From: a virus | Length of the DNA stretch: 29,113 nucleotides | Virus record (IMG/VR): IMGVR_UViG_3300035703_001628 | Coordinates: 1 to 29,113 of that record | Reading direction: 5' to 3' (one strand) | Shown here: one piece after another, positions 2,185 to 28,973 of the stretch | Layout of the letters: each line of letters starts with the position of its first letter | Numbering within the stretch: position 1 is the stretch's first letter | Made by a program: the position numbers and the translations under genes | The notes under the pieces: generated by a model | The model's input: the letters and a program-made list of their open reading frames with translations, nothing else | The model's database searches: none | Told to the model about the DNA's origin: nothing

Positions 2185-2202
2185 TTTGCAATGAGGTGAC
2201 TT

Positions 2203-2394
2203 ATGTCTAATGGTGATTTTGAAGTATTGCCGCGAGGCACGATTGCTGAGCTTCAAGAGCTCAGGCAATTTGCTAACCAAATGATTTCTTACAATTCAAT
2301 CCATGATATGCCAACGCCACATGAGATGCGTGAGCTTATTAATAAGCTGCAACTGTGGTATGCCGGTCATAACGAGAAGTATCCGCAATCCTGA
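2203..2394 (+). CDS. small hypothetical phage protein (63 aa)
   Basis: ATG at 2203 follows GAGGTG. The product is acidic to neutral and mostly helical (IAELQELRQFANQMI, then MRELINKLQLWY), with no Cys, signal or membrane segment. I do not recognise it. Its stop is one base from the ATG of the following gene, so the pair is co-translated. Confidence 0.65.
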   Translation: MSNGDFEVLPRGTIAELQELRQFANQMISYNSIHDMPTPHEMRELINKLQLWYAGHNEKYPQS

Positions 2395-2395
2395 T

Positions 2396-3839: not shown

Positions 3840-3842
3840 ATA
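3835..3842 (+). promoter_or_regulatory. T4-type late promoter TATAAATA
   Basis: An exact match to the T4 late octamer spans the stop of the PurA-like gene, about 24 nt before the ATG of the envelope protein. Initiation here would give a short leader containing GGAGGTG. A gp33-like co-activator is encoded at 19856-20092. Confidence 0.55.
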
Positions 3843-3866
3843 TTTGTATAGCCCTTGGAGGTGTAT

Positions 3867-4268
3867 ATGAAAGCGTTACTACTATTAGGTCTTTTAGTTT
3901 TAGCACCAACAGCTCAAGCCCAGCAAGAAGAAAAGCTTCTTGGCGCAGTTGCAGGTGGATATCTTGGATCTACAATAGGTGGAGGAGATGGTAAGACAGT
4001 AGCAACAGTACTTGGAGCAATCATTGGTTATAATGTTGGTCCACAAGTATTAGGAAACAGCCAAGCATACACCTATAATGATCACAAATATTGGAGACAG
4101 CCTAGTTATAGACAAGCAGATGTATATAAGTTGTGTGACAGAGAGAACCCTTATCATAAGGATTCAAGACTCTACTGGTCATACAATAGGGGATGTGTAC
4201 AGCGTCTAAGCGAAGAAATCAGGCAGTTGGAGCGACAAGCATATGAACAAGGTTACCAAGGACACTAA
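3867..4268 (+). CDS. secreted glycine-zipper protein
   Basis: Start ATG 3867 follows GGAGGTG; the in-frame TTG at 3855 overlaps that ribosome site and is rejected. The 133-residue product begins with a signal peptide (MKALLLLGLLVLAPTAQAQ). A glycine-zipper hairpin (LLGAVAGGYLGSTIGGGDGKTVATV) typical of outer-membrane Rick_17kDa or 2TM proteins follows. The C-terminal half is Tyr/Arg-rich with two Cys. No lipobox Cys follows the signal. It is probably exported and acts at the host envelope, perhaps in lysis or superinfection control. Function unproven. Confidence 0.7.
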   Translation: MKALLLLGLLVLAPTAQAQQEEKLLGAVAGGYLGSTIGGGDGKTVATVLGAIIGYNVGPQVLGNSQAYTYNDHKYWRQPSYRQADVYKLCDRENPYHKDSRLYWSYNRGCVQRLSEEIRQLERQAYEQGYQGH

Positions 4269-4431
4269 TGTTCAGCAATATGAGAAGCTGATTCAAAAAC
4301 TAAACGTACCAGAGGACAGGAAGGCCGCTACGCCACTGAATGCAAGATGGTTTATAAGAACAGGATACGTTCAAAACAGAAACAACCCGCTAGTGGAGCA
4401 GGTTTTGGATCTTGCGAGAAAAATCGCCTAG
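4243..4431 (+). CDS. small hypothetical protein (62 aa)
   Basis: The ATG lies 26 nt inside the preceding gene, with GGAG about ten bases ahead. The product is soluble and predicted helical with a central ATPLNARWFIRTGY stretch and a LARKIA end. No family recognised. The overlap indicates coupling with the envelope-protein gene; a later start cannot be excluded. Confidence 0.5.
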   Translation: MNKVTKDTNVQQYEKLIQKLNVPEDRKAATPLNARWFIRTGYVQNRNNPLVEQVLDLARKIA

Positions 4432-4442
4432 GGAGTAATATC

Positions 4443-4655
4443 ATGTATAGTGAGAGTGTATTGAAGCCGCGTGAACGAATTCATTTTGATCCAGCTAATA
4501 GTGAGCATGTGGAAGACTATGCTAACTTTATTAAGCATTCTAATTGGACAAGTGGATGTAAGTATCTTCTCGAGCAGCCATTCCAAGATATTCCATCAAT
4601 GATTAACAATAAGTTGATTAGGCATTTTCTTAAGCCATACCTCAGGGCAGACTAA
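4443..4655 (+). CDS. small hypothetical protein (70 aa)
   Basis: Start chosen at ATG 4443, which follows GGGAG; the upstream extension only shadows the previous gene. The product has one Cys, several His and Trp, and ends FLKPYLRAD. No domain recognised. It stands 11 nt after its neighbour and 35 nt before the methyltransferase gene. Confidence 0.6.
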   Translation: MYSESVLKPRERIHFDPANSEHVEDYANFIKHSNWTSGCKYLLEQPFQDIPSMINNKLIRHFLKPYLRAD

Positions 4656-4690
4656 ATATAGCATTAGTTATTTTTTAGTTAGGACTTGAG

Positions 4691-5482
4691 ATGAATAAAC
4701 TAGAAGAATATGTTTTAAGATATCAGGGCATCCATTCTGGAACTGATAAGTATCTTGCCCTTGATGGCAAATTGCATACTAACGAAACTGACCCAACCAA
4801 AGGTAAGACCTTATTTGATGGTTCGCAGTTAGGTAAGAAATTTCCACCATACATTCAGCAAGTAATTGATTCTAAACGCAGAGCAATTACATTGCTTGAT
4901 TATGGTTGTGGTAAAGCCATCCACACATATATGCCACTGTCGGCACATGGTAATAAGACTCTACTTGGTAGATTGAATGGTATGATCCAATGCTATTACG
5001 CATATGACCCAGCTGTCAGACAGTATGCCATGAAACCACCACTTGGTATGGAGTTTGATCTTACCTGCTGTGCTGATGTTATGGAGCACGTGCCAGAAGA
5101 TTTTGTTCCTATTGTACTCGCTGAGATTGGCAATTACACAAAGAAGAATGGTACAATGCTATTCTCAATTTCATCTAATCCAGCTAAGAAGATGTTTAGT
5201 GATGGAGAGAACCTCCATGCTACCATTAAGTCTGTTGACTGGTGGACAGATGCCATTCTCAAGTATTGTGGTGATAAGTCGTTTGTATTGTTGCACGATG
5301 ATGATACAAGACTAGACCCTATCACACCAGAACAAAAACAACAGTTGATGGATCAAGGTGTCACAACCTTTACACAATGTAGCACATGGATTCGTTTCCA
5401 TAACTCACAGAGATTCAAAGTATGGGATAAAGATTTTGTTGAAAAGTCATACTACGAAAAGGTCTGGATTGAGGAAGTGTAG
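4691..5482 (+). CDS. class I SAM-dependent methyltransferase
   Basis: This 263-residue protein has the Rossmann motif I LLDYGCG (about 68-74), an acidic residue after the second strand (YAYDP), and the post-motif CCADVMEHVPED (about 126-137) typical of Methyltransf_11/23 enzymes. The N-terminal 60 residues (including GIHSGTDKYLALDGK) may hold a substrate-binding lid. It is first in a five-gene block whose members overlap end to end with three glycosyltransferases and a second methyltransferase, so the target may be a sugar or glycosylated polymer. The acceptor is not identifiable. Confidence 0.75.
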   Translation: MNKLEEYVLRYQGIHSGTDKYLALDGKLHTNETDPTKGKTLFDGSQLGKKFPPYIQQVIDSKRRAITLLDYGCGKAIHTYMPLSAHGNKTLLGRLNGMIQCYYAYDPAVRQYAMKPPLGMEFDLTCCADVMEHVPEDFVPIVLAEIGNYTKKNGTMLFSISSNPAKKMFSDGENLHATIKSVDWWTDAILKYCGDKSFVLLHDDDTRLDPITPEQKQQLMDQGVTTFTQCSTWIRFHNSQRFKVWDKDFVEKSYYEKVWIEEV

Positions 5483-6174
5483 TGAAAAACAAGGTTAAGC
5501 TTTTTATTGGCCATGACTCAAAACAGTCAAGTGTTTGCGATGCATGTAGACTGTCAATCGAAGATAATTCGAACATTGATGTAGATATCATTCATCTAAG
5601 TAGCCTACAAGCTCGAGGTCTATTCTGGAGAGAGCAGCCAATTGGTAGTACTGAGTTTTCATTCACTAGATTCCTAGTACCGTACCTAAAGGGATTCTAT
5701 GGCTATGCTATCTTTTGTGATAGTGATTTCATATGGAACAGCGACCCTCTAGATCTCTTGGATTTAGTGAATCCAAACAGTGCTGTTAGCGTTGTCAAGC
5801 ACAACATTAGTCAAGAGCAGATTAAGCCATTCAAGATGGATGGTCAAAAGCAAACTTGGTATCCAAAGAAGAATTGGTCATCGTTAATGGTGTTCAATTG
5901 TGATCATGCATTCACCAAAAGATTAATGCCAAATGTAGTGTCTGAATCACCAGCTGGATACCTCCATGAGTTCCAGTGGTGTGATGATAAAAACATTGGT
6001 TCCATACCACATACATACAATTACCTAGTAGGATATTACAACGATATTCCAAACCCTAAGGCCATCCACTATACAGATGGCGGCCCATGGCATCCAGGCT
6101 ATGAGAATGTTGAGTTTGCAGATCGTTGGAACTTCTATAAGAATAAAGTAATCGAAAGGTATGGAAGATTCTAA
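5482..6174 (+). CDS. GT8-like glycosyltransferase
   Basis: The start is GTG at 5482, overlapping the previous stop by one base. The 230-residue protein has a metal-binding DxD in AIFCDSDFIW (D80, D82). A C-terminal IHYTDGGPWHPG resembles the HxxGxxKPW motif of GT-A fold family 8 enzymes. These transfer a sugar from an activated nucleotide, usually with retention and Mn2+. No membrane segment is seen, so it should act in the cytoplasm. Operon context suggests sequential sugar additions to one acceptor. Confidence 0.7.
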   Translation: MKNKVKLFIGHDSKQSSVCDACRLSIEDNSNIDVDIIHLSSLQARGLFWREQPIGSTEFSFTRFLVPYLKGFYGYAIFCDSDFIWNSDPLDLLDLVNPNSAVSVVKHNISQEQIKPFKMDGQKQTWYPKKNWSSLMVFNCDHAFTKRLMPNVVSESPAGYLHEFQWCDDKNIGSIPHTYNYLVGYYNDIPNPKAIHYTDGGPWHPGYENVEFADRWNFYKNKVIERYGRF

Positions 6175-7022
6175 TGTGGAATGAAAGGCTAAACGATAAG
6201 TTCACAAACAGACTGATTGGCTACTGTCAAAATAAGAGAGTTCTTATTGTTGGCAATTCAGTGTCGCTGTTTAGTAAGCCATACGGTGAATTTATTGATA
6301 GCTTTGATGTTGTTGTTAGACTCGGTAAAGGGTACCCATGGCCAGAGTTTAAGGAACATCTAGGATCAAAAATAGATGTTTGGGTGTTGTCTATCCTGAG
6401 AGCAAATCACTATAAAGACTTTAAGGATGCTCCATACAAGGTACTAAACATTTCTCAGATATCTGTATACGATAAAGAGAAAACAACAACAACTGTATCT
6501 AAGTACTTCTATGAAGAAGACTTTCAGATATACAAAGACTATTTCTTGATGGGTGACCTCAAGAGAACAAGACAGCTAATTAAATCAGCATATGGTAATA
6601 TTGATGTTAAGCAAAGAGCTTCTCAGGGAGCGTTGACTTTAGCTTATTTTACTAATATCATTAGATCATATAAAGAGCTTCATGTTATTGGCTTTGACTT
6701 CTTTGAGGGCAAGCTTCAATATGAGTTGAAGGGTGAGGTTAATGAGGTGAGTAGTTTTCATCTACCTGTCCCTTCATTCAAGGGTAGCAACTCAAACCCA
6801 CATGCTGGCTTATACGTTGAGGGGCATCCTGACAAACAATATATTCTAAGACTAAGGGATGAGGGTAAGATACATTTCCACGAAATGGATCCCTTAGTTA
6901 GTACACCTGAGCTTAATACTAAAATTGATTCACTAATGAAAAAGTTTAGAAAGACAGGTACACTGCTTGGTTACGAAACATCTGAATTCAATATGAGAGA
7001 AGATAATGAATCTAGTAATTGA
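6174..7022 (+). CDS. GT29 sialyltransferase-like glycosyltransferase
   Basis: The start overlaps the GT8-like stop by one base. The 282-residue product has a stretch like the sialyl L motif (VLIVGNSVSLF, then GEFIDSFDVVVRLGKG). A second like the S motif is ASQGALTLAYFTNI with LHVIGFDFFEG. A late His/Glu-bearing block is NPHAGLYVEGHPDKQYI. Together these point to family GT29 or a related phage group. Eukaryotic relatives move sialic acid from CMP donors; the donor here is unknown. It sits between two other glycosyltransferases. Confidence 0.65.
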   Translation: MWNERLNDKFTNRLIGYCQNKRVLIVGNSVSLFSKPYGEFIDSFDVVVRLGKGYPWPEFKEHLGSKIDVWVLSILRANHYKDFKDAPYKVLNISQISVYDKEKTTTTVSKYFYEEDFQIYKDYFLMGDLKRTRQLIKSAYGNIDVKQRASQGALTLAYFTNIIRSYKELHVIGFDFFEGKLQYELKGEVNEVSSFHLPVPSFKGSNSNPHAGLYVEGHPDKQYILRLRDEGKIHFHEMDPLVSTPELNTKIDSLMKKFRKTGTLLGYETSEFNMREDNESSN

Positions 7023-7950
7023 AAGAAACGAAACAAATAAGAACTCTAAGGGTGGCACTGAACTAATGGCTGAGGGTTTAGAGAGCCATGTTGATAAGGA
7101 AATACTTAGTAAGTTTCAAATCATCCCTTCGAGAGTTAGAAACATTGACCCAGATAAGATTCCAATTTTATGGTTACATGATCTACCTTGGGACCCTGAA
7201 TCTGCCAAGCTAAAAGATCCAGAGTATAGAAAGCAATTTAAGAAAATTGTTTTTGTTTCTCATTGGCAACAACAAATGTATAATACAGTACTTGGTGTAC
7301 CGTACTCAGAAGGTATTGTAATCAAGAATGCTATCAATCCAATTCAGCCAGAACTTATCAATAAGCAAGATCCAGATGGTAAGATTAGATTAATCTATCA
7401 TCCAACACCACATAGAGGATTAGAGATTCTTGTTCCTGTATTTAATGAGTTGATTAATCTTCATCCAGATATTCACTTGGATGTGTATTCAAGCTTTAAA
7501 CTCTATGGCTGGGCAGAAAGAGATAAGCCATATCAAGCACTGTTTGATGAAATCAAGCAGCATCCAAATATGACCTATCATGGCTCAGTATCTCAAGAAG
7601 AATTGAGAGCAGCTGTTGGTAGATCCCACATCTTTGCTTACCCATCAATCTGGCAGGAAACAAGTTGCCTATGTGCAATTGAAGCTATGTCAGCAGGATG
7701 CTTAACTGTCACATCTTCTCTTGCTGCATTACCAGAGACTTGTGCTAATTACGCTCTAATGTATAACTATACAGAGAATGTTAACGATCACGCCAACATG
7801 TTCTTCAGAGTACTACATCATGCAGTCAATGTTATTAAGCAAGGTCAGGCTGATAACTATCTAAGAGCCCAGAAAGAATACTTTGACAGAAATTATGATT
7901 GGAATATAAGGAAGGACGAATGGACGTTCCTGCTAAATTCACTTCTGTAA
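7006..7950 (+). CDS. GT4-like glycosyltransferase (GT-B fold)
   Basis: The ATG lies 17 nt inside the previous gene. The 314-residue protein resembles group 1 glycosyltransferases. An N-terminal acceptor domain includes ILWLHDLPWD. A donor domain has HPTPHRGLEILVPVF and the E-x7-E motif ETSCLCAIEAMSAGC, followed by SLAALPE. The fold binds a nucleotide sugar in its C-terminal half. It is short for the family (usually 350-400), mostly at the N-terminus. It ends inside the next methyltransferase gene. Confidence 0.75.
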   Translation: MNLVIERNETNKNSKGGTELMAEGLESHVDKEILSKFQIIPSRVRNIDPDKIPILWLHDLPWDPESAKLKDPEYRKQFKKIVFVSHWQQQMYNTVLGVPYSEGIVIKNAINPIQPELINKQDPDGKIRLIYHPTPHRGLEILVPVFNELINLHPDIHLDVYSSFKLYGWAERDKPYQALFDEIKQHPNMTYHGSVSQEELRAAVGRSHIFAYPSIWQETSCLCAIEAMSAGCLTVTSSLAALPETCANYALMYNYTENVNDHANMFFRVLHHAVNVIKQGQADNYLRAQKEYFDRNYDWNIRKDEWTFLLNSLL

Positions 7951-18466: not shown

Positions 18467-18964
18467 ATGAGGCTACAAATCGAAGGTGGAACAGAAATAC
18501 ACCAGAGGCATTGTAGACAGTTTGCTAGATTCTTCTCTAATAGATTCTTCTCTAAGGATCTTAATAAACAAATCACCATTAAGCTAAAACTTATTAAGCA
18601 GCCTGAAATAAAGTATGGTGATGAATGTGGCCATGTTGAGTGGATGGATAATAACAGACAACCTAGAAAGTTCTCGATCCACATTAACATACCATCAAGA
18701 CCTTCCCTAAGGTACATCATAAGCACACTAGCCCATGAGATGGTTCATGTTAAACAGTTTGTTAAGAACGAACTAGTTGACCTTCCGTCTACTGATTATA
18801 ACGTATCAATGTTTAAGAATAAGAAGTATAATCTTAACCGTATAGGCTACTATGACCAACCTTGGGAAATTGAGGCTTTCGGTCGTGAACGTGGACTAAC
18901 TAAAGAATACTTCGAAAAGGTCAAGTTGGCTAAAAAATTATTAAAGAGCCCTGTTGACTTCTAG
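18467..18964 (+). CDS. SprT-like zinc metallopeptidase
   Basis: The 165-residue protein has the gluzincin motif HEMVH (H90, E91, H94) and a later PWEIEAFGRE whose Glu (about 136) can supply the third zinc ligand, as in SprT/Spartan-type peptidases. Cellular Spartan removes DNA-protein crosslinks; phage functions are not known. Residues 21-30 contain a duplicated RFFSN/RFFSK caused by a perfect 15-base tandem repeat. TAGGAG precedes the ATG. A paralog lies at 20089. Confidence 0.75.
   Translation: MRLQIEGGTEIHQRHCRQFARFFSNRFFSKDLNKQITIKLKLIKQPEIKYGDECGHVEWMDNNRQPRKFSIHINIPSRPSLRYIISTLAHEMVHVKQFVKNELVDLPSTDYNVSMFKNKKYNLNRIGYYDQPWEIEAFGRERGLTKEYFEKVKLAKKLLKSPVDF
18526..18555 (+). repeat. perfect 15-base tandem duplication inside a gene
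   Basis: TAGATTCTTCTCTAA occurs at 18526-18540 and again immediately at 18541-18555. It is in frame (five residues per copy), so it is length-variable without breaking the reading frame. Confidence 0.9.
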
Positions 18965-19382: not shown

Positions 19383-19859
19383 ATGAACGAACTATCTGCT
19401 GTATATCCATATGCTGAAGTTAGCCACAATAAGTGGCATACTAGATTCCTAGACCTAGCATCTCATATTGCTGAATGGTCGAAGGATCCATCAACTAAGG
19501 TTGGTGCTGTGATTGTTGACAATGAGCGTAGAGTAGTGTCTCTTGGTTACAATGGTTTACCAAGAGGAATGGTTGATCATGACTACATACTAAATAATAA
19601 AGAAATCAAACTTCAGGTAGTCAAGCATGCCGAAGAGAACGCCATTCTCAACTCTCTACTACGTCCAGCAAACTGTACTATTTACGTTACTCATCATCCT
19701 TGCGCCTCTTGCGCTGGTAGCATTGTTCAGTCTGGCATTCGCCGTGTTGTCTTTCCTTCTGTTCCTGTGGATAGTACGTTCCCTTCGAGATGGAAAGAGT
19801 CCATATCGCTGGCACAAACGATATTCCAAGAGGCCGGAGTAGAGGTAGTAGAATTATGA
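19383..19859 (+). CDS. dCMP/cytidine-type deaminase
   Basis: The 158-residue protein has the zinc deaminase motifs HAEENAIL (H82, E84) and PCASCAGSI (C107, C110), preceded by SKDPSTKVGAVIV and GYNGLPRG typical of deoxycytidylate deaminases. Deamination of dCMP gives dUMP for dTMP synthesis. Substrate assignment rests on family resemblance. The ATG sits at the end of a terminator T-run with no Shine-Dalgarno sequence; the only GGAG is in the terminator loop. Expression may therefore depend on read-through and on whether the hairpin is folded. Confidence 0.82.
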   Translation: MNELSAVYPYAEVSHNKWHTRFLDLASHIAEWSKDPSTKVGAVIVDNERRVVSLGYNGLPRGMVDHDYILNNKEIKLQVVKHAEENAILNSLLRPANCTIYVTHHPCASCAGSIVQSGIRRVVFPSVPVDSTFPSRWKESISLAQTIFQEAGVEVVEL

Positions 19860-20092
19860 TGGAACTAGATGGTAAGGTTACTGTTAATAACTTTCAAACT
19901 GTTATTGAGAGTTGTGTCCATAAGAAAGGTATGGGCTACCTTGAAGCAATCATGTGGTATTGCGAAGAGAACAACGTCGAGATCGAAGCTGTTGCCTCTT
20001 TGATTAAAAAGTCAGATGCTATCAAGGCTAAACTTGAAGCTGAATGTGAGGACCAGAACATGATCAACAAGACACCAAGGCTGCCAGTATGA
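19856..20092 (+). CDS. 33: T4 gp33-like late-transcription co-activator
   Basis: ATGA overlap with the deaminase stop (ATG 19856; 19859 also possible). The 78-residue product has the gp33 pattern known from T4-like cyanophages: FQTVIESCVHKKGMGYLEAIM, then WYCEENNVEIEAVASLI and IKAKLEAECEDQNMI. gp33 joins RNA polymerase with the gp55 sigma and the sliding clamp at TATAAATA late promoters, several of which are present here. gp55 is not in this window. The call rests on remembered family patterns rather than an alignment. Confidence 0.7.
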   Translation: MMELDGKVTVNNFQTVIESCVHKKGMGYLEAIMWYCEENNVEIEAVASLIKKSDAIKAKLEAECEDQNMINKTPRLPV

Positions 20093-20637
20093 AGATCACT
20101 TGTACAACTAAGTTGCCACCAAAGCTTCGCAAGCATGTAGTTGCTTTAACGAAGTTTACAGTTGATACTATCTTCACTAAAGCTCAGAAGAAGAAGCTTG
20201 AGCTAATTAGTATTAGAATTGATAAGACATTGAATGATAGTTCAATCCACAATGTCGATGCTGTTCCATTAGCATACATGGATGCTTTTATCGAAGACTA
20301 TGATGAGAGCCAGAAACCAAGACATTTCGTTATTTGGATCAATCCATTCTTCACTAAGAAGAATCTATCTAAGCAAACTAAGACAACGTTTGCCGAAACA
20401 ATCGTTCATGAGATTGTTCATATTAGACAAGCACTTACTGGCCAGATGAAGCAGATCGTCAAGAACGGTAACATGATGATCAAGTTTCATAAGAAGTACT
20501 ATAAGCTTGATTCGAATGACAACTACTGGTTGTTTCCATGGGAAGTTGAAGCTCGTGGATATGAGAAAGGTGTACTCAATCTCTATTGTATCAAGAATAA
20601 ATGCTTTCAAGAGTTTCCTGAACAACCACTGAAGTAA
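20089..20637 (+). CDS. second SprT-like zinc metallopeptidase
   Basis: ATGA overlap with the gp33-like gene. The 182-residue product has HEIVH (H107, E108, H111) and FPWEVEARGYEKG as a third-ligand block, the same arrangement as the 18467 protein. Overall identity outside the motifs looks low, so this is an old duplication or separate gain. It lies directly after gp33 and before the carbamoyltransferase set. Confidence 0.75.
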   Translation: MKITCTTKLPPKLRKHVVALTKFTVDTIFTKAQKKKLELISIRIDKTLNDSSIHNVDAVPLAYMDAFIEDYDESQKPRHFVIWINPFFTKKNLSKQTKTTFAETIVHEIVHIRQALTGQMKQIVKNGNMMIKFHKKYYKLDSNDNYWLFPWEVEARGYEKGVLNLYCIKNKCFQEFPEQPLK

Positions 20638-21635
20638 TGTTCACTCTTGGTATCAATCTATCACACCACTCATCAATAGCACTTCTTAAAGACAATGAAG
20701 TGCTTTTGTTTATACATGAAGAGAGATTAAATAGAGACAAGTACCATAGAGGTTTACCATATAGGTCTCTTGATCTAATTAAAAATTATACTAACAACAT
20801 TGATAGTGTAATCCAAGTTAGTGGTTCTACTGACAATCTTAAAGCAATAGTTAAGTACCTAGCTGACCAAAACGTTGATATTACTACCTTTAGGAATGAC
20901 GGTAGTCTTCACCATATGTCACATGCAGCTGCTGGATTCTTCATGTCGCACTTCGATACTGCTACTGTAGTAGTTATTGATGGTGCTGGAGCATTGTATA
21001 GGCTCAACAAATCTAATGTCAGAATATCAGAAACCACATCACTATATGATGCCAGGTTTCCTCAAATCGTATGTACTGATAAACATTTCGTCATAGGTCT
21101 TTACGATAAGAAGCCTTTAGTATATACGGATGATGACAAGAAAGCATTTAGAGCTAAATTCAAGAATTCAAGAGTTAGTATAACAGAAGCGCTCGATATT
21201 GGGTGGAAGTATGCCGAGGTAACATCCAGCATTGGGTTTGGTACATTCGGTGAAGGTAAGACGATGGGCCTTTCTGCTTACGGCCATAAACCTACAACAG
21301 ATCAAAATGTCAACAAAGCCTATAACATTCAAAAGGAACTTGAGGCAGTGTTTGTCCATCTAGCTAGTAAAATTAAAACAGACAATGTTGTGCTAAGTGG
21401 TGGCTGTGCTCTAAACATTCTTGGCAATTCCTTAATTAAGAAGACATACTCCAACCTCAATGTATTTGTTGATCCAATAGCAGCTGATGGCACAGTTGCA
21501 TTAGGAGCAGCAGCATATGAGTACTACTCTAAGACCAAGGATATAAATAAATTAGTATTTGGTTTATACCAAGGTCCGCAGTACCAGCTTGAGAAAAATT
21601 ACATATATGAATGTGCAAGAAAATATTCAGTATAA
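20637..21635 (+). CDS. carbamoyltransferase N-terminal (Kae1-like) half
   Basis: The 332-residue product matches the first domain of NodU/CmcH/TobZ O-carbamoyltransferases: MFTLGINLSHHSSIALL, the metal ligands H92 and H96 (LHHMSHAAAG), D115 (VVIDGAG), GEGKTMGLSAYG, LSGGCALNILGN and PIAADGTVALGAA. This domain moves carbamoyl from carbamoyl-adenylate to the acceptor. The frame ends just after the GPQY linker, where a full-length enzyme would continue. The C-terminal half follows in the +1 frame. A one-base change near 21625-21640 would join them. Confidence 0.85.
   Translation: MFTLGINLSHHSSIALLKDNEVLLFIHEERLNRDKYHRGLPYRSLDLIKNYTNNIDSVIQVSGSTDNLKAIVKYLADQNVDITTFRNDGSLHHMSHAAAGFFMSHFDTATVVVIDGAGALYRLNKSNVRISETTSLYDARFPQIVCTDKHFVIGLYDKKPLVYTDDDKKAFRAKFKNSRVSITEALDIGWKYAEVTSSIGFGTFGEGKTMGLSAYGHKPTTDQNVNKAYNIQKELEAVFVHLASKIKTDNVVLSGGCALNILGNSLIKKTYSNLNVFVDPIAADGTVALGAAAYEYYSKTKDINKLVFGLYQGPQYQLEKNYIYECARKYSV
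21542..21549 (+). promoter_or_regulatory. TATAAATA octamer before the carbamoyltransferase C half
   Basis: An exact late octamer lies inside the N-half gene, 58 nt before the ATG at 21607. If used it would let the C-terminal half be transcribed on its own. Confidence 0.35.
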
Positions 21636-22164
21636 GGATGTTGCTAGTTTACTGAATGAAAGAAAGCTGGTAGCAATCTTTCAAGGTAGATCAGAAAGTG
21701 GTCCAAGAGCATTAGGCAACAGATCAATGCTCTACACTCCTACAGATCCAAACGGTAGAGACCATGTCAATAAGATTAAAGGTAGAGAGTACTTTAGGCC
21801 ACTAGCTGCGTCAATGATGCTAGAGTATGCGAATGATTGGTTCGATATGCTTGGCATTCCTGAATCGCCTTATATGACTTTCTCCTTCACTTGTAAAGAA
21901 GATAAGAAGCATATCATCCCGTCTGTAATCCATGTTGATGGATCTTGTAGAATTCAAACTGTTACAGAGCAGCAAAACTTCCACTACTATAATCTAATCA
22001 AGGCATTCTATCAATTGACTGGCGTGCCAATGGTTCTTAATACATCGTTGAATCTGGCAGGTGAACCACTTGTAGAAACTATTGACGATACATTTAACAC
22101 ATTTACAAAGTCTAAAATAGACCATCTCTACCTACCTGAGTTAGAGTTGCTTGTTTCCAAATGA
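21607..22164 (+). CDS. carbamoyltransferase C-terminal (YrdC-like) half
   Basis: Start taken at ATG 21607 (MNVQENIQYKDVASLL), inside the end of the N half; no strong ribosome site is seen. The 185-residue product holds the complete second domain: FQGRSESGPRALGNRSML, KGREYFRPLAASMM, HVDGSCRIQTV, TGVPMVLNTSLNLAGEP and LDHLYLPE-like end (here IDHLYLPELEL). In TobZ this YrdC-like domain makes carbamoyl-adenylate. It could be a separate subunit or the product of frameshifting from the N half. Its stop overlaps the next start. Confidence 0.82.
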   Translation: MNVQENIQYKDVASLLNERKLVAIFQGRSESGPRALGNRSMLYTPTDPNGRDHVNKIKGREYFRPLAASMMLEYANDWFDMLGIPESPYMTFSFTCKEDKKHIIPSVIHVDGSCRIQTVTEQQNFHYYNLIKAFYQLTGVPMVLNTSLNLAGEPLVETIDDTFNTFTKSKIDHLYLPELELLVSK

Positions 22165-23366
22165 GCTACTATACACTAGCAATATCATCATCCAACCATG
22201 ATTCATCTATTTGTCTTCTTAAAGACAGTGAGATAGTTGTTGCCTTTTCCTGTGAAAGAACTAATAAGATGAAACACACTCAAAGGGTGGAGCAGTGTGA
22301 TATTGATGTAATTGCAAAATATACTAGGACTGTTGATAAGTTGGTCCTTATCAATGTCAACGCGAAGTATGAAAAGTATCCAATGTTTAATGCTTTTGAG
22401 GTATCAGAAACAGTAGAGAGCTTACTAAAGAAAGTAAGGAAAGCTGGAATACAATGTAAAAGGACAGTTGTTGATAATGCCCTACATCATCTTTATCATG
22501 CCGCCGCCGGATACTACACTTCTGGCCTTGATGATGCAATCTGTATTATTATTGATGGCTTTGGTTCAACAGAGCAGCATGAAGATGCTTCATTTGCAGA
22601 AACAACTTCTATCTTCTATGCTAAAGATACCTTTGAGACTCTCCACAAACAAATTTTATATAAGTTCGAGTCACCAAAAAGGACAGGATGGGATAACAAA
22701 AAGCTATCCGATAAGAAGAAGTCCTATAGGTTTCCTGTTACACTCACGACACATCTTGATATTGGTAAGATGTATGGTACAATAACTAGACACATTGGAT
22801 TTTATACTGTCGATGCTGGTAAGACGATGGGTCTATCGGCTTATGGAAAACCAAATAACCTACCATCTATGCTAGTTGATGATACAATCATATCAAATAG
22901 CAATTTGTTCAGATATGATAGTTACATTGATGTTCAATGCTATCCTGAATTAGATAGCCCTGATGACCAAACTAAGAAGAACTTAGCATACAATGTTCAG
23001 AAGGCTCTCGAAAAGATATTTGTAGAAAGAGTTGCATCTGCACTGAAAATCAAGTATAGTAATAATGTAATACTTGGTGGTGGTTGTGCTCTTAACATCT
23101 TAGGAAACTCAGAGGTCAAGAAACACTTTCCTAACACTAATGTGTATCCTGAGCCAATTGCAGCTGATGCTGCTCAATCGATTGGCGCTGCGTTATATCA
23201 TTACAAGTTGGAATTTCCTAATACAAAGTTTAAGAAAATAGATAATGTATACTTTGGTCCTCATTATGAACTTTCGACTGTCAAGCAAAGTCTTCTACAA
23301 CTAGTGGAGCAATACAACAATGAGTCTGGTCTACAGGTCAGTGGTAGCCAACAACAAGGTGGCTGA
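22161..23366 (+). CDS. second carbamoyltransferase N-terminal half, no C half
   Basis: This 401-residue protein is another Kae1-like domain: LAISSSNHDSSICLL, H109 and H113 (LHHLYHAAAG), D132 (IIIDGFGS), GKTMGLSAYG, LGGGCALNILGN and PIAADAAQSIGAA. All metal ligands are kept. It ends 36 residues after GPHY with a polar tail (SGLQVSGSQQQGG), and no YrdC-like domain follows in any frame. It may share the C half at 21607, or act as a decoy or regulatory paralog. It overlaps the C-half gene by 4 nt. Confidence 0.85.
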   Translation: MSYYTLAISSSNHDSSICLLKDSEIVVAFSCERTNKMKHTQRVEQCDIDVIAKYTRTVDKLVLINVNAKYEKYPMFNAFEVSETVESLLKKVRKAGIQCKRTVVDNALHHLYHAAAGYYTSGLDDAICIIIDGFGSTEQHEDASFAETTSIFYAKDTFETLHKQILYKFESPKRTGWDNKKLSDKKKSYRFPVTLTTHLDIGKMYGTITRHIGFYTVDAGKTMGLSAYGKPNNLPSMLVDDTIISNSNLFRYDSYIDVQCYPELDSPDDQTKKNLAYNVQKALEKIFVERVASALKIKYSNNVILGGGCALNILGNSEVKKHFPNTNVYPEPIAADAAQSIGAALYHYKLEFPNTKFKKIDNVYFGPHYELSTVKQSLLQLVEQYNNESGLQVSGSQQQGG

Positions 23367-24867: not shown

Positions 24868-24942
24868 GGACCCATCGTCTAACGGTTAGGACATTACCCT
24901 TTCACGGTAAGAATAGGGATTCGAATTCCCTTGGGTTCACCA
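24868..24942 (+). tRNA. tRNA-Glu (anticodon TTC)
   Basis: Acceptor GGACCCA/TGGGTTC with encoded ACCA; anticodon arm TTACC-CTTTCAC-GGTAA; T-loop TTCGAAT. First tRNA of the cluster. Confidence 0.93.
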
Positions 24943-24947
24943 TTTAT

Positions 24948-25075
24948 GTGCGTTTCGTCTAAACAACGGACAGGACAGAGGGCCACATAAGTCTACAGTG
25001 GAAACACAACACTGAAAAGTGCGGTAGCGGTGGAATAACCTCAAAATGCGGGTTCGAATCCCGTAACGCACACCA
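24948..25075 (+). ncRNA. 128-nt tRNA-like RNA with expanded anticodon domain
   Basis: The ends are fully tRNA-like: acceptor GTGCGTT (24948-24954) with AACGCAC (25065-25071) and ACCA, D-arm TCGTCT...CGG...AGGACA, T-arm GCGGG-TTCGAAT-CCCGT. Where a 17-nt anticodon arm should be there are about 70 nt closed by GAGG/CCTC and holding hairpins CCAC/GTGG and CACT-GAAA-AGTG. No 7-nt anticodon loop with T33 is visible. It may be an intron-bearing tRNA or a tRNA mimic that uses tRNA processing. Isotype not assignable. Confidence 0.6.
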
Positions 25076-25081
25076 TATTAC

Positions 25082-25157
25082 GGACCGTTAGCTCAGCTGG
25101 TAGAGCATTTGACTCTTAATCAACAGGTCGTAGGTTCGATCCCTACACGGTCCACCA
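25082..25157 (+). tRNA. tRNA-Lys (anticodon CTT)
   Basis: Acceptor GGACCGT/ACGGTCC plus ACCA; anticodon arm TTTGA-CTCTTAA-TCAAC; canonical GG D-loop and TTCGATC T-loop. Confidence 0.95.
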
Positions 25158-25160
25158 TTT

Positions 25161-25234
25161 GCCGGATTGGTATAACGGAATTACAGCGGTCTCCAAAACC
25201 GTTAACGGGGGTTCGACTCCCTCATCCGGTGCCA
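25161..25234 (+). tRNA. tRNA-Trp (anticodon CCA)
   Basis: Acceptor GCCGGAT/ATCCGGT (G1-U72 wobble) plus GCCA; anticodon arm GCGGT-CTCCAAA-ACCGT. Confidence 0.95.
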
Positions 25235-25247
25235 GCATAGTTATTAT

Positions 25248-25322
25248 TGGCGAGTAGATCAGTGGTAGATCAGTTGACTGTTAATCAACCTGTCGTAGGT
25301 TCGATCCCTACCTCGCCAGCCA
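25248..25322 (+). tRNA. tRNA-Asn (anticodon GTT)
   Basis: Acceptor TGGCGAG/CTCGCCA plus GCCA; anticodon arm GTTGA-CTGTTAA-TCAAC. Confidence 0.95.
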
Positions 25323-25484
25323 TCTTGGTGTCCTGCAGATGCATCTGACGGGTACACACTATCAGTGTTGAGGCTTTTCCGTTACGGGAACACTGATTGA
25401 TATATGAGGTAGAACGGAATGCATTCTATGTTGCGTGGGGGCATAGATAAGAACCAACCTTAAATGGTAGCCCACGCCTTATTT
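25323..25484 (+). ncRNA. structured spacer RNA between tRNA-Asn and tRNA-Ala
   Basis: No ORF. Strong helices: palindrome CAGATGCATCTG inside a GTGT/ACAC hairpin near 25328-25356; ATCAGTGTT/AACACTGAT (25361-25369, 25389-25397) with an inner CCG-TTA-CGG; and GCGTGGG/CCCACGC (25433-25439, 25471-25477). It ends in the TTATTT spacer that also separates the tRNAs, as if processed as its own unit. Identity unknown. Confidence 0.5.
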
Positions 25485-25558
25485 GGGGACGTAAGCTAAC
25501 GGGAAACTGACGCCCTTGCACGGCGTACTTGTGGGTTCGATTCCCACCGTCTCCACCA
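25485..25558 (+). tRNA. tRNA-Ala (anticodon TGC)
   Basis: Acceptor GGGGACG/CGTCTCC with the G3-U70 pair expected for alanine, plus ACCA; anticodon arm ACGCC-CTTGCAC-GGCGT. Confidence 0.95.
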
Positions 25559-25564
25559 TTTTAT

Positions 25565-25721
25565 GAAGAGTCCGAAAGCGAGGTGAATAACCACCAACCT
25601 GGCTGTCGAGGGTGTGTCGCTCTACAACAATTATCGATTCCCTTTGGGGAATGCTGTGGTAGCATGATATGTGTGTAGAGAGCGTTCTGCTCTTAAACGG
25701 ATATGACAGCACTCTTCACCA
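25565..25721 (+). ncRNA. 157-nt structured RNA with tRNA-like ends
   Basis: GAAGAGT (25565-25571) pairs with ACTCTTC (25711-25717), followed by ACCA as in a tRNA. Inside are GCTGTC/GACAGC (25602-25607, 25705-25710, abutting the closing stem), CGCTCTACA/TGTAGAGAGCG (25618-25626, 25674-25684), ATTCCC/GGGAAT (25637-25652) and a TGCT/AGCA hairpin. It has no TTCGA loop. The motif GGTGAATAACC also occurs, nearly the same, in the tRNA-like RNA at 24948. Function unknown. Confidence 0.55.
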
Positions 25722-25991
25722 AACGTGCCATCTAATCAATGGCTAGTCTACCCAGACGATGAGAAACGGTGTGATGTCCGTAGGGTGGTTCCAGTCTAAC
25801 CGAACTGGCGCTGGCAATGCGAAAATCCTCTCTGGTCGGGATGCGGATACCACATTGCGTTAAGTGTTTGTGGTGGGATGACAAAAACCGCCGCAGAGAG
25901 GAAGCAACCTATTTTTGGTGCCTAGAATAGAATCGCGAAAGGATAGTCTAGGTTAAATGCCAACCCTAAGTGGGCGCAGCCGTCTTATTTT
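25722..25991 (+). ncRNA. structured RNA of unknown identity before tRNA-Gln
   Basis: There is no supported ORF in these 270 bases. Helices: CCAGT/ACTGG near 25790-25807; perfect CCTCTCTG/CAGAGAGG (25827-25834, 25894-25901) enclosing ACCACA/TGTGGT (25849-25854, 25869-25874); and CCTAGA/TCTAGG near 25921-25954. GCAATG (25814-25819) can pair with CATTGC (25853-25858) in the inner hairpin, making a pseudoknot. Two TATTTTT spacers suggest separate processed pieces. Not recognised as any tRNA. Confidence 0.5.
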
Positions 25992-26065
25992 TGAGGAGTC
26001 GTCTAACGGCAGGACAGCAGGTTTTGATCCTGCTTATCGTGGTTCGAATCCATGCTCCTCAGCCA
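25992..26065 (+). tRNA. tRNA-Gln (anticodon TTG)
   Basis: Acceptor TGAGGAG/CTCCTCA plus GCCA; anticodon arm GCAGG-TTTTGAT-CCTGC. Confidence 0.94.
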
Positions 26066-26071
26066 AAATTT

Positions 26072-26158
26072 GGACAGGTTGGAGAGCGGTTAAATCCAAT
26101 TGACTGTAAATCAATCACCCTACGGGTTACGCTAGTTCGAATCTAGCCCTGTCCACCA
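26072..26158 (+). tRNA. tRNA-Tyr (anticodon GTA)
   Basis: Acceptor GGACAGG/CCTGTCC plus ACCA; anticodon arm ATTGA-CTGTAAA-TCAAT; long variable arm CACCCTACGGGTTAC as expected for class II. Confidence 0.95.
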
Positions 26159-26163
26159 CACTT

Positions 26164-26239
26164 GGGACAATAGCTCAGTTGGTAGAGCAAAGTGTTGATA
26201 ACGCTTAGGTCCATGGTTCAAGCCCATGTTGTCCCACCA
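26164..26239 (+). tRNA. tRNA-Ile (anticodon GAT)
   Basis: Acceptor GGGACAA/TTGTCCC plus ACCA; anticodon arm AAGTG-TTGATAA-CGCTT. Confidence 0.94.
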
Positions 26240-26244
26240 TCTTT

Positions 26245-26275
26245 GGCTCGGTAGTTCAGTTAATGACTGTAACCT
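26245..26275 (+). pseudogene. truncated tRNA 5' fragment
   Basis: GGCTCGGTAGTTCAGTT has the form of a tRNA acceptor strand and D-arm, spaced from tRNA-Ile like the other cluster members, but no CCGAGCC partner, anticodon arm or T-arm follows. The HNH endonuclease gene begins 50 nt later, so it may be the remnant of a tRNA broken when that gene arrived. Confidence 0.5.
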
Positions 26276-26302
26276 AATAAAATCCTGTGACATTCAGAAT
26301 CT

Positions 26303-26310
26303 TATAAATA
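26303..26310 (+). promoter_or_regulatory. TATAAATA late promoter of the HNH gene
   Basis: Exact octamer within CTTATAAATAAG (26301-26312), the same 12-mer as at 28078. It lies 16 nt before the HNH ATG, with GGAGG between them. Confidence 0.45.
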
Positions 26311-26326
26311 AGATTGGAGGTGTCAT

Positions 26327-26740
26327 ATGGAAACAAAAACATGTTCAAATTGCAAGCAAACAAAACCCATAACCTTTTTTAGCAAATATAAAAGATCTAA
26401 GGATGGGTATGATTATCGTTGCAAAGAGTGTAGCAAGCAGTCAAATAAAGCCTGGTGCGACAACAATTGGGATAAAAAAATGTCCCAGCAACGTGATAGA
26501 ACTAAATTGCTTGTGGAACAGGTAAGGAATTATAAACAATCATTCGGTTGTAAATTCTGTGACGAAAATGAGCCAGTATGCTTAGAGCTGCATCACTTAG
26601 ATCCTACTGCTAAAGAAATTAACCCCTCCGATATGGCAGGTAGGGGCTGGAGTTGGGAAAGGATGCAAAGAGAACTCAGTAAATGTATTGTATTATGTTC
26701 TAACTGTCATAAAAAAGTACATGCTGGTCTGTTAGTATAG
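26327..26740 (+). CDS. HNH endonuclease (probable homing nuclease)
   Basis: The 137-residue protein starts METKTCSNCKQTKPITFF, a CxxC zinc ribbon (C6, C9) completed by C32/C35. It ends in a zinc-stabilised HNH nuclease: CKFC (C75, C78), LELHHLDP (H89, H90), then CIVLCSNCHKKVH (C124, C127, H128, H132). Such free-standing HNH genes in tRNA clusters are usually mobile. GGAGG precedes the ATG. The stop codon TAG (26738-26740) lies inside tRNA-Asp, so the last five codons double as the tRNA 5' end. Confidence 0.85.
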   Translation: METKTCSNCKQTKPITFFSKYKRSKDGYDYRCKECSKQSNKAWCDNNWDKKMSQQRDRTKLLVEQVRNYKQSFGCKFCDENEPVCLELHHLDPTAKEINPSDMAGRGWSWERMQRELSKCIVLCSNCHKKVHAGLLV

Positions 26741-26800
26741 TGGTAAGTACGCGAGCCTGTCACGCTTGCAGCACGAGTTCAATTCTCGTACAGACCGCCA
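26726..26800 (+). tRNA. tRNA-Asp (anticodon GTC)
   Basis: Acceptor GGTCTGT/ACAGACC plus GCCA; anticodon arm CGAGC-CTGTCAC-GCTTG. Its first 15 bases are also the end of the HNH reading frame. Confidence 0.95.
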
Positions 26801-26805
26801 TATTT

Positions 26806-26881
26806 GGGATCATAACTCAATGGCTAGAGTAACTGGCTTTTAACCAGTAAGTTCTGGGTTCGAGTCCCAGTGATCCTACCA
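26806..26881 (+). tRNA. tRNA-Lys (anticodon TTT)
   Basis: Acceptor GGGATCA/TGATCCT plus ACCA; anticodon arm ACTGG-CTTTTAA-CCAGT. Confidence 0.95.
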
Positions 26882-26890
26882 TTTGGTCAC

Positions 26891-26934
26891 TTCAGTAAAA
26901 AGTATACGCGAGTATATAATACTCATTTTACTGA
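26891..26934 (+). promoter_or_regulatory. long inverted repeat around a TATAAT
   Basis: TTCAGTAAAA (26891-26900) and TTTTACTGAA (26925-26934) are exact reverse complements, and AGTAT/ATACT extend the stem. TATAAT (26915-26920) is in the loop. No good -35 is seen. It could be an operator, an attenuator or an mRNA hairpin for the DUF2061 gene. Confidence 0.45.
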
Positions 26935-26977
26935 ATCAAGTCACAATGAATTTACAATAAAATAATGGAATTTACAA

Positions 26978-27382
26978 ATGGACACATACAACAGAACATT
27001 TGCTAAGACAGCAACGTATAGAATAGTAACATTTGTTCTTACGTTTGTCTTAACGTACTTAATTACTGGTGATGCCTTTCCATCTGCAACGATTGCAATT
27101 CTCTCGTTGACAGTTGGTGCCCTATCGTTTATGATACACGAACGTCTTTGGACTAGGGTCAAGTGGGGCAACCTAGGTGGCTTTGACCGTAAGGTTAGAT
27201 CTGTTGTTAAGACAATTACATATAGACTATGGTCTTTGTTCATTGTGTTTGTCCTTGGATTATTTTTTGGACTTGGCGCTTCAGAAGCGTTGTCTGTTAC
27301 AGTCGTATTGAATATAATGTACCTACTTTCGCACTACGTCAATGAACGAGTGTGGAATAGAATTAAGTGGGGAAAGAATTAA
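26978..27382 (+). CDS. tandem DUF2061 membrane protein
   Basis: The 134-residue protein consists of two copies of the DUF2061 unit (about 1-66 and 68-134). Each has KT-x-TYR at the start, two membrane segments and an E-R-x-W-x-R-x-KWG end (HERLWTRVKWG and NERVWNRIKWG). Four membrane passes in the inner membrane are expected. The family occurs in bacteria and phages with no established function. No clear ribosome site. The stop is 2 nt before tRNA-Pro, so RNase P would cut right behind it. Confidence 0.82.
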   Translation: MDTYNRTFAKTATYRIVTFVLTFVLTYLITGDAFPSATIAILSLTVGALSFMIHERLWTRVKWGNLGGFDRKVRSVVKTITYRLWSLFIVFVLGLFFGLGASEALSVTVVLNIMYLLSHYVNERVWNRIKWGKN

Positions 27383-27384
27383 TT

Positions 27385-27461
27385 CGGATATTAGCTCAGT
27401 CTGGTAGAGCACCTGCTTTGGGAGCAGGGGGTCGCAAGTTCGAGTCTTGCATGTCCGACCA
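27385..27461 (+). tRNA. tRNA-Pro (anticodon TGG)
   Basis: Acceptor CGGATAT/ATGTCCG plus ACCA; anticodon arm CCTGC-TTTGGGA-GCAGG. Confidence 0.94.
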
Positions 27462-27467
27462 ATTTTC

Positions 27468-27552
27468 GCGACTGTGGTGGAATCGGTATACACAACAGAC
27501 TTAAAATCTGTCGGCGTTAGCCATGTCGGTTCAAGTCCGACCAGTCGCACCA
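27468..27552 (+). tRNA. tRNA-Leu (anticodon TAA)
   Basis: Acceptor GCGACTG/CAGTCGC plus ACCA; anticodon arm ACAGA-CTTAAAA-TCTGT; long variable arm CGGCGTTAGCCAT. Confidence 0.95.
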
Positions 27553-27557
27553 GTTTT

Positions 27558-27634
27558 GGCCTCGTAGCTCAGTGGATTAGAGCAACAGCCTTCTAAGCTG
27601 TGGGTCGCAGGTTCGAGTCCTGCCGGGGTCGCCA
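27558..27634 (+). tRNA. tRNA-Arg (anticodon TCT)
   Basis: Acceptor GGCCTCG/CGGGGTC plus GCCA; anticodon arm ACAGC-CTTCTAA-GCTGT. It reads AGA/AGG, the main arginine codons of many phage genes here. Confidence 0.95.
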
Positions 27635-27640
27635 ATTGAC

Positions 27641-27648
27641 TATAAATA
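27641..27648 (+). promoter_or_regulatory. TATAAATA late promoter
   Basis: Exact octamer 22 nt before the ATG at 27670, with TTGGAG in the leader. Confidence 0.5.
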
Positions 27649-27669
27649 CTCTAAACACTTGGAGTATCT

Positions 27670-27960
27670 ATGAAGAAGTTTAAAGAAGTTATTGCCGGCA
27701 CCAACTGCTTAAACTGTAGCTGGGCCAACTTTAAGAACGTCGTAGCTGTTAGACCAGAGGAGCTTAACGCTCAAGGTGGTCTTAACATTGCTAAAGAGGA
27801 TATGGCAAAAGCTAAGCATAGTGACTTAGTTACATTGCCAGGCAAGGCTTCTGTGGTTAATAAGTTTTGGTGTGAACACGAAGATGTCACACAATACGTT
27901 ACTGAAAGAATGTGCTGTAAGTATTGGGATGCTGAGGGCACGAAAAGAGATTGGAAGTAG
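27670..27960 (+). CDS. Cys-containing hypothetical protein (96 aa)
   Basis: TTGGAG precedes the ATG. Five Cys and one His are arranged as CLNC, WCEH and CC near the C-terminus, which could bind a metal or an Fe-S cluster. Otherwise polar, with no membrane segment. I do not recognise the family. A sigma70-like promoter for tRNA-Thr begins directly after the stop. Confidence 0.65.
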   Translation: MKKFKEVIAGTNCLNCSWANFKNVVAVRPEELNAQGGLNIAKEDMAKAKHSDLVTLPGKASVVNKFWCEHEDVTQYVTERMCCKYWDAEGTKRDWK

Positions 27961-27989
27961 TTGACTTCCTAAGTAGGTACACGTATAGT
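27961..27989 (+). promoter_or_regulatory. sigma70-like promoter of tRNA-Thr
   Basis: TTGACT (27961-27966), 17-nt spacer, TATAGT (27984-27989). The tRNA starts at 28000, so the transcript begins only a few bases before it. Confidence 0.75.
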
Positions 27990-27999
27990 ACTCAATATT

Positions 28000-28075
28000 G
28001 CCCTTGTAGCTCAGCTGGTAGAGCGCCTGATTTGTAATCAGGATGTCGGCGGTTCGACTCCGTCCGGGGGCACCA
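28000..28075 (+). tRNA. tRNA-Thr (anticodon TGT)
   Basis: Acceptor GCCCTTG/CGGGGGC plus ACCA; anticodon arm CCTGA-TTTGTAA-TCAGG. Confidence 0.95.
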
Positions 28076-28205
28076 GTCTTATAAATAAGTTTTACCCGCC
28101 CTACCTTTCGGTGTAAGGTTTGTCGCATAGCGATGGGTTTTTCGTAAATAGGAATCTAGTACATAGTGCGCACTGTGTGACGATAGATGAACCGAATCTT
28201 TCTAT
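28076..28205 (+). other. structured spacer with TATAAATA, no gene seen
   Basis: It begins with CTTATAAATAAG (28078-28089), identical to 26301-26312. Then come a TCGC-ATA-GCGA hairpin followed by GGGTTTTT, possibly a terminator, and the near-palindrome CATAGTGCGCACTGTG around 28163-28176. No ORF supported. Confidence 0.4.
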
Positions 28206-28280
28206 TGCGGGGTAGAGAAGTAGCAACTCGTCAGCCTCATAAGCTGAAGACCGGTGGTGCAAATCCATCCCCCGCTACCA
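28206..28280 (+). tRNA. initiator-type tRNA-Met (anticodon CAT)
   Basis: TGCGGGG pairs with CCCCGCT except at the first pair (T1 opposite T72), the unpaired 1-72 feature of formyl-methionine initiators. A11-T24 in the D-stem also fits. Anticodon arm TCAGC-CTCATAA-GCTGA. The T-loop is TGCAAAT, with G instead of U at 55, and the D-loop lacks GG. Confidence 0.85.
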
Positions 28281-28288
28281 ATTAAATT

Positions 28289-28561
28289 ATGACACTAGAT
28301 CAATTCAATAGTATGTTCCCCCTTATAGCTAGTTCTGCTGTGATGCTGAACATCTATAAGGTATATAAAGACAAGGTAGTAAGAGGCATCCATTGGGCTA
28401 GCCCTCTGATCAACTATACTGGTCAGATATCAGGAACATATCTTCTATACTCATTAGGTCAATACTATTCGGCGATGGCTGGAGTGTGGTACACTTGCCT
28501 CTCGATCACATGGTATTGTATGATGATTTACTATAACTTCTATAAGAAGATGCCCAGTTAG
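28289..28561 (+). CDS. small multi-pass membrane protein (90 aa)
   Basis: The product has about three hydrophobic segments (FPLIASSAVMLNIY; INYTGQISGTYLLYSLG; AGVWYTCLSITWYCMMIYY) and is rich in Tyr. The loose layout recalls PQ-loop/SemiSWEET halves, but no PQ motif is present and I do not assign it. The ATG is 9 nt after the CCA of initiator tRNA-Met with no ribosome site. Its stop TAG (28559-28561) lies inside tRNA-Val. Confidence 0.6.
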   Translation: MTLDQFNSMFPLIASSAVMLNIYKVYKDKVVRGIHWASPLINYTGQISGTYLLYSLGQYYSAMAGVWYTCLSITWYCMMIYYNFYKKMPS

Positions 28562-28626
28562 TTCAGCGGTAGAACTCTGTCTTTACACGGCAGCTGTCGG
28601 CGGTTCGATCCCGTCACTGGGTACCA
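28552..28626 (+). tRNA. tRNA-Val (anticodon TAC)
   Basis: Acceptor GCCCAGT/ACTGGGT plus ACCA; anticodon arm CTGTC-TTTACAC-GGCAG. Its first ten bases overlap the end of the preceding reading frame. Confidence 0.95.
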
Positions 28627-28727
28627 ATTCATAGCCTCGTACTGTTCAGGCAAGTGGGGCAAAGGCCGGTGGACTCGCGGCGCCAAGCATGAAAAAGGCC
28701 TTGGCCAACATGAGTCCTTCTTTTACT
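28627..28727 (+). ncRNA. structured spacer RNA between tRNA-Val and tRNA-Ser
   Basis: GGACTC/GAGTCC encloses GCCAAG/CTTGGC, with a T-rich tail (TTCTTTT), and a GCCT/AGGC hairpin lies upstream. It could be a terminator with a long stem or a small folded RNA. No ORF. Confidence 0.4.
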
Positions 28728-28815
28728 GGAAGGTTGCTAGAGAGGCCTATTAGCGCTCTTTGCTAAAGAGATGGATGTAACAGTCACGTAGGTTCGAATC
28801 CTACACCTTCCGCCA
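28728..28815 (+). tRNA. tRNA-Ser (anticodon GCT)
   Basis: Acceptor GGAAGGT/ACCTTCC plus GCCA; anticodon loop TTGCTAA between CTCT and AGAG; class II length (88 nt). Confidence 0.92.
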
Positions 28816-28817
28816 AT

Positions 28818-28893
28818 AGCAACGTAGCATAGTGGCCAATGCACCTCCTTCATACGGAGTTTATCGTCAGTTCGAGTCTGACCGTTGCTACCA
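28818..28893 (+). tRNA. tRNA with CAT anticodon (elongator Met or Ile2)
   Basis: Acceptor AGCAACG/CGTTGCT plus ACCA; anticodon arm CCTCC-TTCATAC-GGAGT. Pairing at 1-72 rules out an initiator. Met versus lysidine-modified Ile2 cannot be decided by eye. Confidence 0.88.
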
Positions 28894-28898
28894 TATTT

Positions 28899-28973
28899 GT
28901 TGCGGTGGCAGAAAAGTTATGCAAGAGTCTGCAAAACTCTTTTATGCTGGTGCGAGTCCAGTCCGCAACTCCA
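28899..28973 (+). tRNA. tRNA-Cys (anticodon GCA), altered elbow
   Basis: Acceptor GTTGCGG/CCGCAAC plus TCCA; anticodon arm AGAGT-CTGCAAA-ACTCT. T-loop TGCGAGT (G55) and a D-loop without GG (GAAAAGTTA). Confidence 0.9.

Follow-up and report, generated by a model that had tools for sequence, protein, structure and literature searches.

Class III carbamoyltransferases, known from the modification of antibiotics, Nod factors and phage DNA, have been described as single chains. In TobZ, GdmN, NovN, VtdB and NodU, an N half (PF02543) with the metal ligands and a catalytic histidine precedes a YrdC-like C half (PF16861) in one polypeptide, the latter carrying the KxR...SxN motif named in PMC9654439. 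The conversion of carbamoyl phosphate and ATP to carbamoyl-AMP is established for TobZ-type enzymes (PMC9654439, PMC9633730). In GdmN, the metal ligands are H133, H137, D156 and D333, and H27 acts as general base, such that the exchange H27N abolishes activity (PMC9633730). A phage-borne member of the same family, the 5hmC carbamoyltransferase (metaGPA, PMC8670742), is one 63-kDa chain encoded beside a thymidylate synthase homologue.

The window, i.e. the whole stretch of DNA analysed here, is a 29,113-base IMG/VR virus record and probably a fragment. The initial annotation had described a carbamoyltransferase in the order N half, C half, N half, and this order is borne out by the ORF list and by Pfam matches to PF02543, PF16861 and PF02543 in three + strand ORFs at 20637-23366, referred to as N1, C and N2. 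The domains, ligands, catalytic histidine and KxR...SxN motif are those of the enzymes above, but they are spread over three chains, with two N halves to one C half. On domain and residue content the locus would belong to class III, an assignment that does not extend to the defining one-chain layout: instead of one chain with N before C, the locus has three ORFs whose overlaps are constant throughout the clade A relatives (clade A being the window and eight further contigs with N1-C-N2 obtained from viral contig searches).

Two described arrangements come closer in layout. Free C and free N halves, adjacent or overlapping, are present in the isolated cyanophages S-SCSM1 (C-N-C-N), S-RIM44 and Sf-FP1 (C-N), and PHROG 20469, a family 181 positions long, consists of C halves only; in these phages, known from annotation, each N half has its own C half, whereas the window has one for two. 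The TsaD-TsaB-TsaC system of t6A tRNA modification likewise combines a separate YrdC-type activator with two Kae1-fold paralogues (PMC9654439), but its proteins belong to families other than PF02543 and PF16861, transfer threonylcarbamoyl instead of carbamoyl, and differ from the window, where both paralogues retain the catalytic residues. The Pfam matches at the locus are to PF02543 and PF16861 and not to TsaD/TsaC family domains, and a window protein scores only 24.5 bits against TIGR00329, for which the cut-off is 207.8. Our search of the open-access literature found no papers on split phage carbamoyltransferases; as far as shown there, the split copies already deposited (S-SCSM1, S-RIM44) are apparently unstudied. 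Two cyanophage papers call phage carbamoyltransferase genes pyrimidine-synthesis enzymes, and the split genes are a caution regarding publications that interpret such phage genes as aspartate carbamoyltransferases of pyrimidine synthesis.

Organisation of the locus

The features of the locus are as follows.

19383-19859, + strand: dCMP deaminase, upstream neighbour conserved in clade A (Pfam and synteny)
20089-20637, + strand: HExxH protein (phrog_10499), operon neighbour upstream, sharing 1 nt with the start of N1 (conserved synteny)
20637-21635, + strand: N1, predicted Kae1-like transferase subunit of 332 aa, probably accessory (PF02543, Carbam_trans_N, E 8e-20; motif residues; model)
21542-21549, + strand: TATAAATA, T4 late-promoter-like, within N1 (retained in nearest relatives only)
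21607-22164, + strand: C, YrdC-like, predicted carbamoyl-AMP-forming subunit of 185 aa, probably shared (PF16861, Carbam_trans_C, E 4e-59; KxR...SxN; length)
21607-21635, + strand: 29-nt overlap, shared by the end of N1 and the start of C (conserved in clade A)
22161-23366, + strand: N2, predicted Kae1-like transferase subunit of 401 aa, putative constant partner of C (PF02543, E 3e-26; motifs; model)
22161-22164, + strand: 4-nt overlap ATGA, shared by the stop of C and the start of N2 (every N-C-N contig examined)
23320-23508, + strand: 62-aa ORF overlapping the N2 end, same operon (kept in relatives at 61-62 aa)

As the initial annotation had stated, C lies in the +1 frame relative to N1 and starts inside it: the first ATG of the C frame is at 21607, and the N1 stop ends at 21635. 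This ATG yields exactly the 185 aa of the free C half in sister phages, which makes an alternative start at TTG 21559 less likely. Also in agreement with that annotation, a second N half follows which is not succeeded by a C half in the window; the motif-1 catalytic histidine, HxxxH and the two aspartates are all present in N1 as well as in N2. The description of the locus as partly duplicated holds insofar as N1 and N2 are paralogues, but not in the sense of a recent copy, since their identity of only 39% indicates an old duplication. N1 is the shorter of the two and, relative to the family profile, is missing a stretch near model positions 229-270.

The initial annotation had also pointed to the element TATAAATA ahead of the C half. 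It is indeed found at 21542-21549, and the window holds six copies compared to 1.8 expected, a number reached in 1 of 100 shuffles. The copy at 21542 is kept in the window and its nearest relatives (L010, L012, L014), but it is absent from L022 and L027 and is therefore not a fixed part of the locus; a late promoter at this position as a fixed element was rejected on these grounds.

Conservation and selection in clade A

The order N1-C-N2 was found in 23 viral contigs including the window, nine of clade A and 14 of a second clade described below. In all clade A contigs examined, the 29-nt overlap between N1 and C and the 4-nt overlap between C and N2 are identical. Five clade A relatives were compared to the window in detail, and their identities to it are 45-89% for N1, 84-92% for C and 50-93% for N2. 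Where synonymous sites were unsaturated, dN/dS amounted to 0.08-0.20 for N1, 0.03-0.06 for C and 0.06-0.11 for N2, which indicates that all three genes are under purifying selection. A slowly evolving C with N1 and N2 diverging at similar pace is as expected for one common and two specialised subunits.

These data bear on the proposal, made in the initial annotation, that the first gene was broken by a single base change, i.e. that a normal fused enzyme was split by an indel through sequencing error or as a decaying pseudogene. N1 and C together do resemble a fused chain cut at the linker. Comparing the frames in related phages, however, gave the same +1 junction and overlap in eight other contigs, with N1 down to 45% identity, and not an indel; clade A holds no fused relative, dN/dS lies between 0.03 and 0.20, and split copies are annotated in the isolates S-SCSM1, S-RIM44 and Sf-FP1. 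We thus dismiss an indel or assembly error as the origin of the junction, and a broken gene is hardly credible. Judged by conservation across contigs, the N1-C-N2 arrangement is genuine and maintained by selection.

A programmed +1 ribosomal frameshift within the 29-nt overlap, yielding some N1-C fusion beside free N1, would be compatible with several observations: C is always in +1 relative to N1 (overlaps of 17, 26, 29 and 56 nt, all 2 mod 3), fused N1C proteins are found in L092, L097 and L099, and the overlap DNA is unusually conserved in clade A (86-97% identical versus 47-87% directly upstream in N1). The latter, however, is expected where two frames are coded at once. No slippery codon is conserved, the codons before the stop being GTA, CTA or ATA, and this lack of a conserved slippery site led us to reject the frameshift, which we regard as improbable. 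Furthermore, sister phages carry the identical 185-aa C without N1 upstream, which argues that C has its own start.

C and N2 as the core pair

In the sisters of clade A that are without N1, C is followed by N, with an overlap of 4 nt (L312/L313, L315) or 16 nt (L317). In the tree, N2 of the window groups with the N half from the second S-SCSM1 pair and with those of the C-N sister phages; the same group, 18 N halves without any fused protein (support 96/90), also includes N1. The C-N-only sisters, the identical length of C and the tree grouping together suggest C-N2 as the core pair, to which N1 was added as a paralogue; on this comparative evidence C-N2 is the ancestral pair and N1 an extra subunit. 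The idea of the initial annotation that two N halves share one C half is in line with G001, a 188-kb and possibly incomplete relative with one PF16861 gene and two PF02543 genes, but the pairing turns out to be reversed, with C-N2 as the core and N1 as the extra part.

Two further contigs show variations of the locus. L316 carries five pieces in a row at 1657-6525, in the order C-N-C-N-N, and so holds another extra N half without its own C. L275 has a clade A neighbourhood with an N1 of just 309 aa (3992-4921); C and N2 are missing from this 13.8-kb contig, which ends 1.1 kb beyond N1.

A separate origin in cyanophages

The second clade, clade B, is a cyanophage clade with psbA and psbD. It has N1-C-N2 in 14 contigs, directly after thyX where examined. 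At the same site, six contigs (L092, L097, L099, L175, L178, L183) carry a fused N1C of 530 aa followed by N2, and four (L177, L179, L181, L182) carry C-N2 without N1, in which C starts with the linker residues LYLGPTY; L008, with a C beginning LLTGPTYD, resembles the latter. In the fused gene, an internal Met is already present where the split C begins. The occurrence of fused, split and N1-less versions at one site implies that fission of a fused gene occurred in clade B and that N1 can be lost there, and provides a natural experiment on how genes split and subunits are lost. The assumption that a fused ancestor was split later is consequently valid for this separate cyanophage lineage, but not for clade A of the window.

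Constraining N1 of both clades to a single clade was rejected (p-AU 4e-40), so that the order N1-C-N2 arose at least twice; a single origin was discarded on the strength of the N1 topology, although joining the C halves of both clades gave p 0.225 in the same test. Orphan N halves also adjoin fused enzymes in S-SSM7 and Sf-FS3, and in prokaryote genomes ordinary fused chains made up 76 of the best 80 matches.

Catalytic residues and predicted mechanism

All complete N halves checked retain the two His and two Asp that serve as metal ligands. The catalytic histidine of the first N motif (GdmN H27, TobZ H14) is H in N1 and N2 of the window, while in clade B it is replaced by Asn in all short N2, with the metal ligands retained, and by Lys in the fused N1C of L080, L092, L097 and L099. 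In these four contigs, with Lys in N1C and Asn in N2, the customary general base is missing from both N halves, although all metal ligands are present. In the C half, K58, R60, S147 and N149 of the KxR...SxN motif are invariant in 14 C halves. AlphaFold models, for which rows from annotated phage records had been excluded from the alignments, reached a pLDDT of 86 for N1 and 85.5 for N2. The best structural matches of both models are TobZ, GdmN, NovN and VtdB; N1 superimposes on TobZ with Z 25.2 and 2.8 Å over 263 residues, and the best Foldseek matches of N2 are TobZ/VtdB/GdmN. Foldseek TM-scores of the models are only 0.6-0.7, so fine geometry is not to be read from them.

Our preferred reading, to which we assign a probability of roughly 0.6, is that the three genes encode a heteromeric class III (NodU/TobZ-type) carbamoyltransferase in which C feeds N1 or N2 in trans. 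The free YrdC-like C would turn carbamoyl phosphate and ATP into carbamoyl-adenylate, which we infer to be passed between chains from C to N1 or N2, as opposed to within one chain in the fused enzymes. N1 and N2, as Kae1-like metal-binding subunits, would each transfer the carbamoyl group to an acceptor, and their acceptors probably differ. N1 would be a second transferase subunit added to the C-N2 core. As there is a single C half but two intact N halves, two transferases served by one activator is the simplest interpretation. That the subunits form a complex, that C is shared, the chemistry and the difference in acceptors are thereby predictions from sequence. Carbamoyl-AMP, or further C, could also be supplied by host enzymes.

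The main rival to the sharing of C is an obligate heterodimer of N1 and N2 in the manner of TsaD-TsaB, in which C would supply only the catalytic subunit, the other one having a supporting role or shaping the substrate site. A precedent is TsaD-TsaB, two unequal paralogues of the Kae1 fold that act with a YrdC protein as a separate chain (PMC9654439), and the short, Asn-type N2 of clade B would fit a non-catalytic partner, as the exchange of His to Asn kills GdmN activity (PMC9633730). In the window, on the other hand, both N halves retain the histidine and all metal ligands. Moreover, the C-N sisters have no N1, and some cyanophages have deleted it but kept the Asn-type N2, which shows that N2 does not need N1. 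We therefore consider a heterodimer unlikely.

A broader version of the shared-C reading, put forward tentatively and at somewhat less than even odds, is a modular in-trans system with a shared C and two acceptors, whose subunits were repeatedly added, split and deleted and in which the Asn-type N2 would operate by a changed mechanism or with another nucleophile. If this were true, carbamoyl-adenylate could pass between separate proteins, opening a plug-in route to new acceptors.

Possible acceptors and genomic neighbourhood

By analogy with the phage 5hmC enzyme, itself a class III carbamoyltransferase (PMC8670742), the shared enzyme might act on hydroxymethylated pyrimidine nucleotides or DNA. 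The position of the cyanophage copies directly after thyX and the dCMP deaminase upstream of the module in the window, a domain which co-occurs with carbamoyltransferases in modified contigs, would agree with such an acceptor. Yet PF00303, the ThyA-type hydroxymethylase, was not found in the contigs, possibly fragments, of nine relatives; ThyX, whose product is dTMP, adjoins many cyanophage genes; and in the nearest sisters C-N is surrounded by sulfotransferase and 2OG-oxygenase-like genes. A nucleotide or DNA acceptor consequently appears rather doubtful. Sulfotransferases adjoin C-N in L313, L315 and L317, and in L313 there is also a kinase with a weak APS-kinase match. These sulfotransferase and 2OG-oxygenase-like neighbours point to a glycan or small molecule as acceptor, and the glycosyltransferase-like genes about 13 kb upstream of the module in the window agree with this. 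There, a GT29 (sialyltransferase)-like gene (6174-7022) and a GT1-like gene (7006-7950) lie adjacent to each other after a methyltransferase.

The module of the window is followed by an array of 19 tRNA genes at 24868-28973. The array likewise follows the module in L013/L019 (22 tRNAs), L022 (21), L014 and L010. tRNA as acceptor was nevertheless set aside, as the clade B loci examined lack tRNA genes close to the module. Within the array of the window, a COG2908 RNA motif was detected at 28094-28138 (RF02939, 70.7 bits).

Upstream of the module, the dCMP deaminase is flanked by two paralogous phrog_10499 proteins (18467-18964 and 20089-20637), both with HExxH. An adenylosuccinate synthetase homologue at 2847-3839, which could bear on 2-aminoadenine DNA, reaches neither the PurA (265.8 of 402) nor the PurZ (122.7 of 300) cut-off of NCBIfam. 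A permuted (two-piece) tmRNA is encoded at 1226-1414 (RF04321, 136.8 bits; ARAGORN tag ANDDYYEMALAA), and such a tmRNA is present as well in G001 (155373-155610) and G003 (23044-23291).
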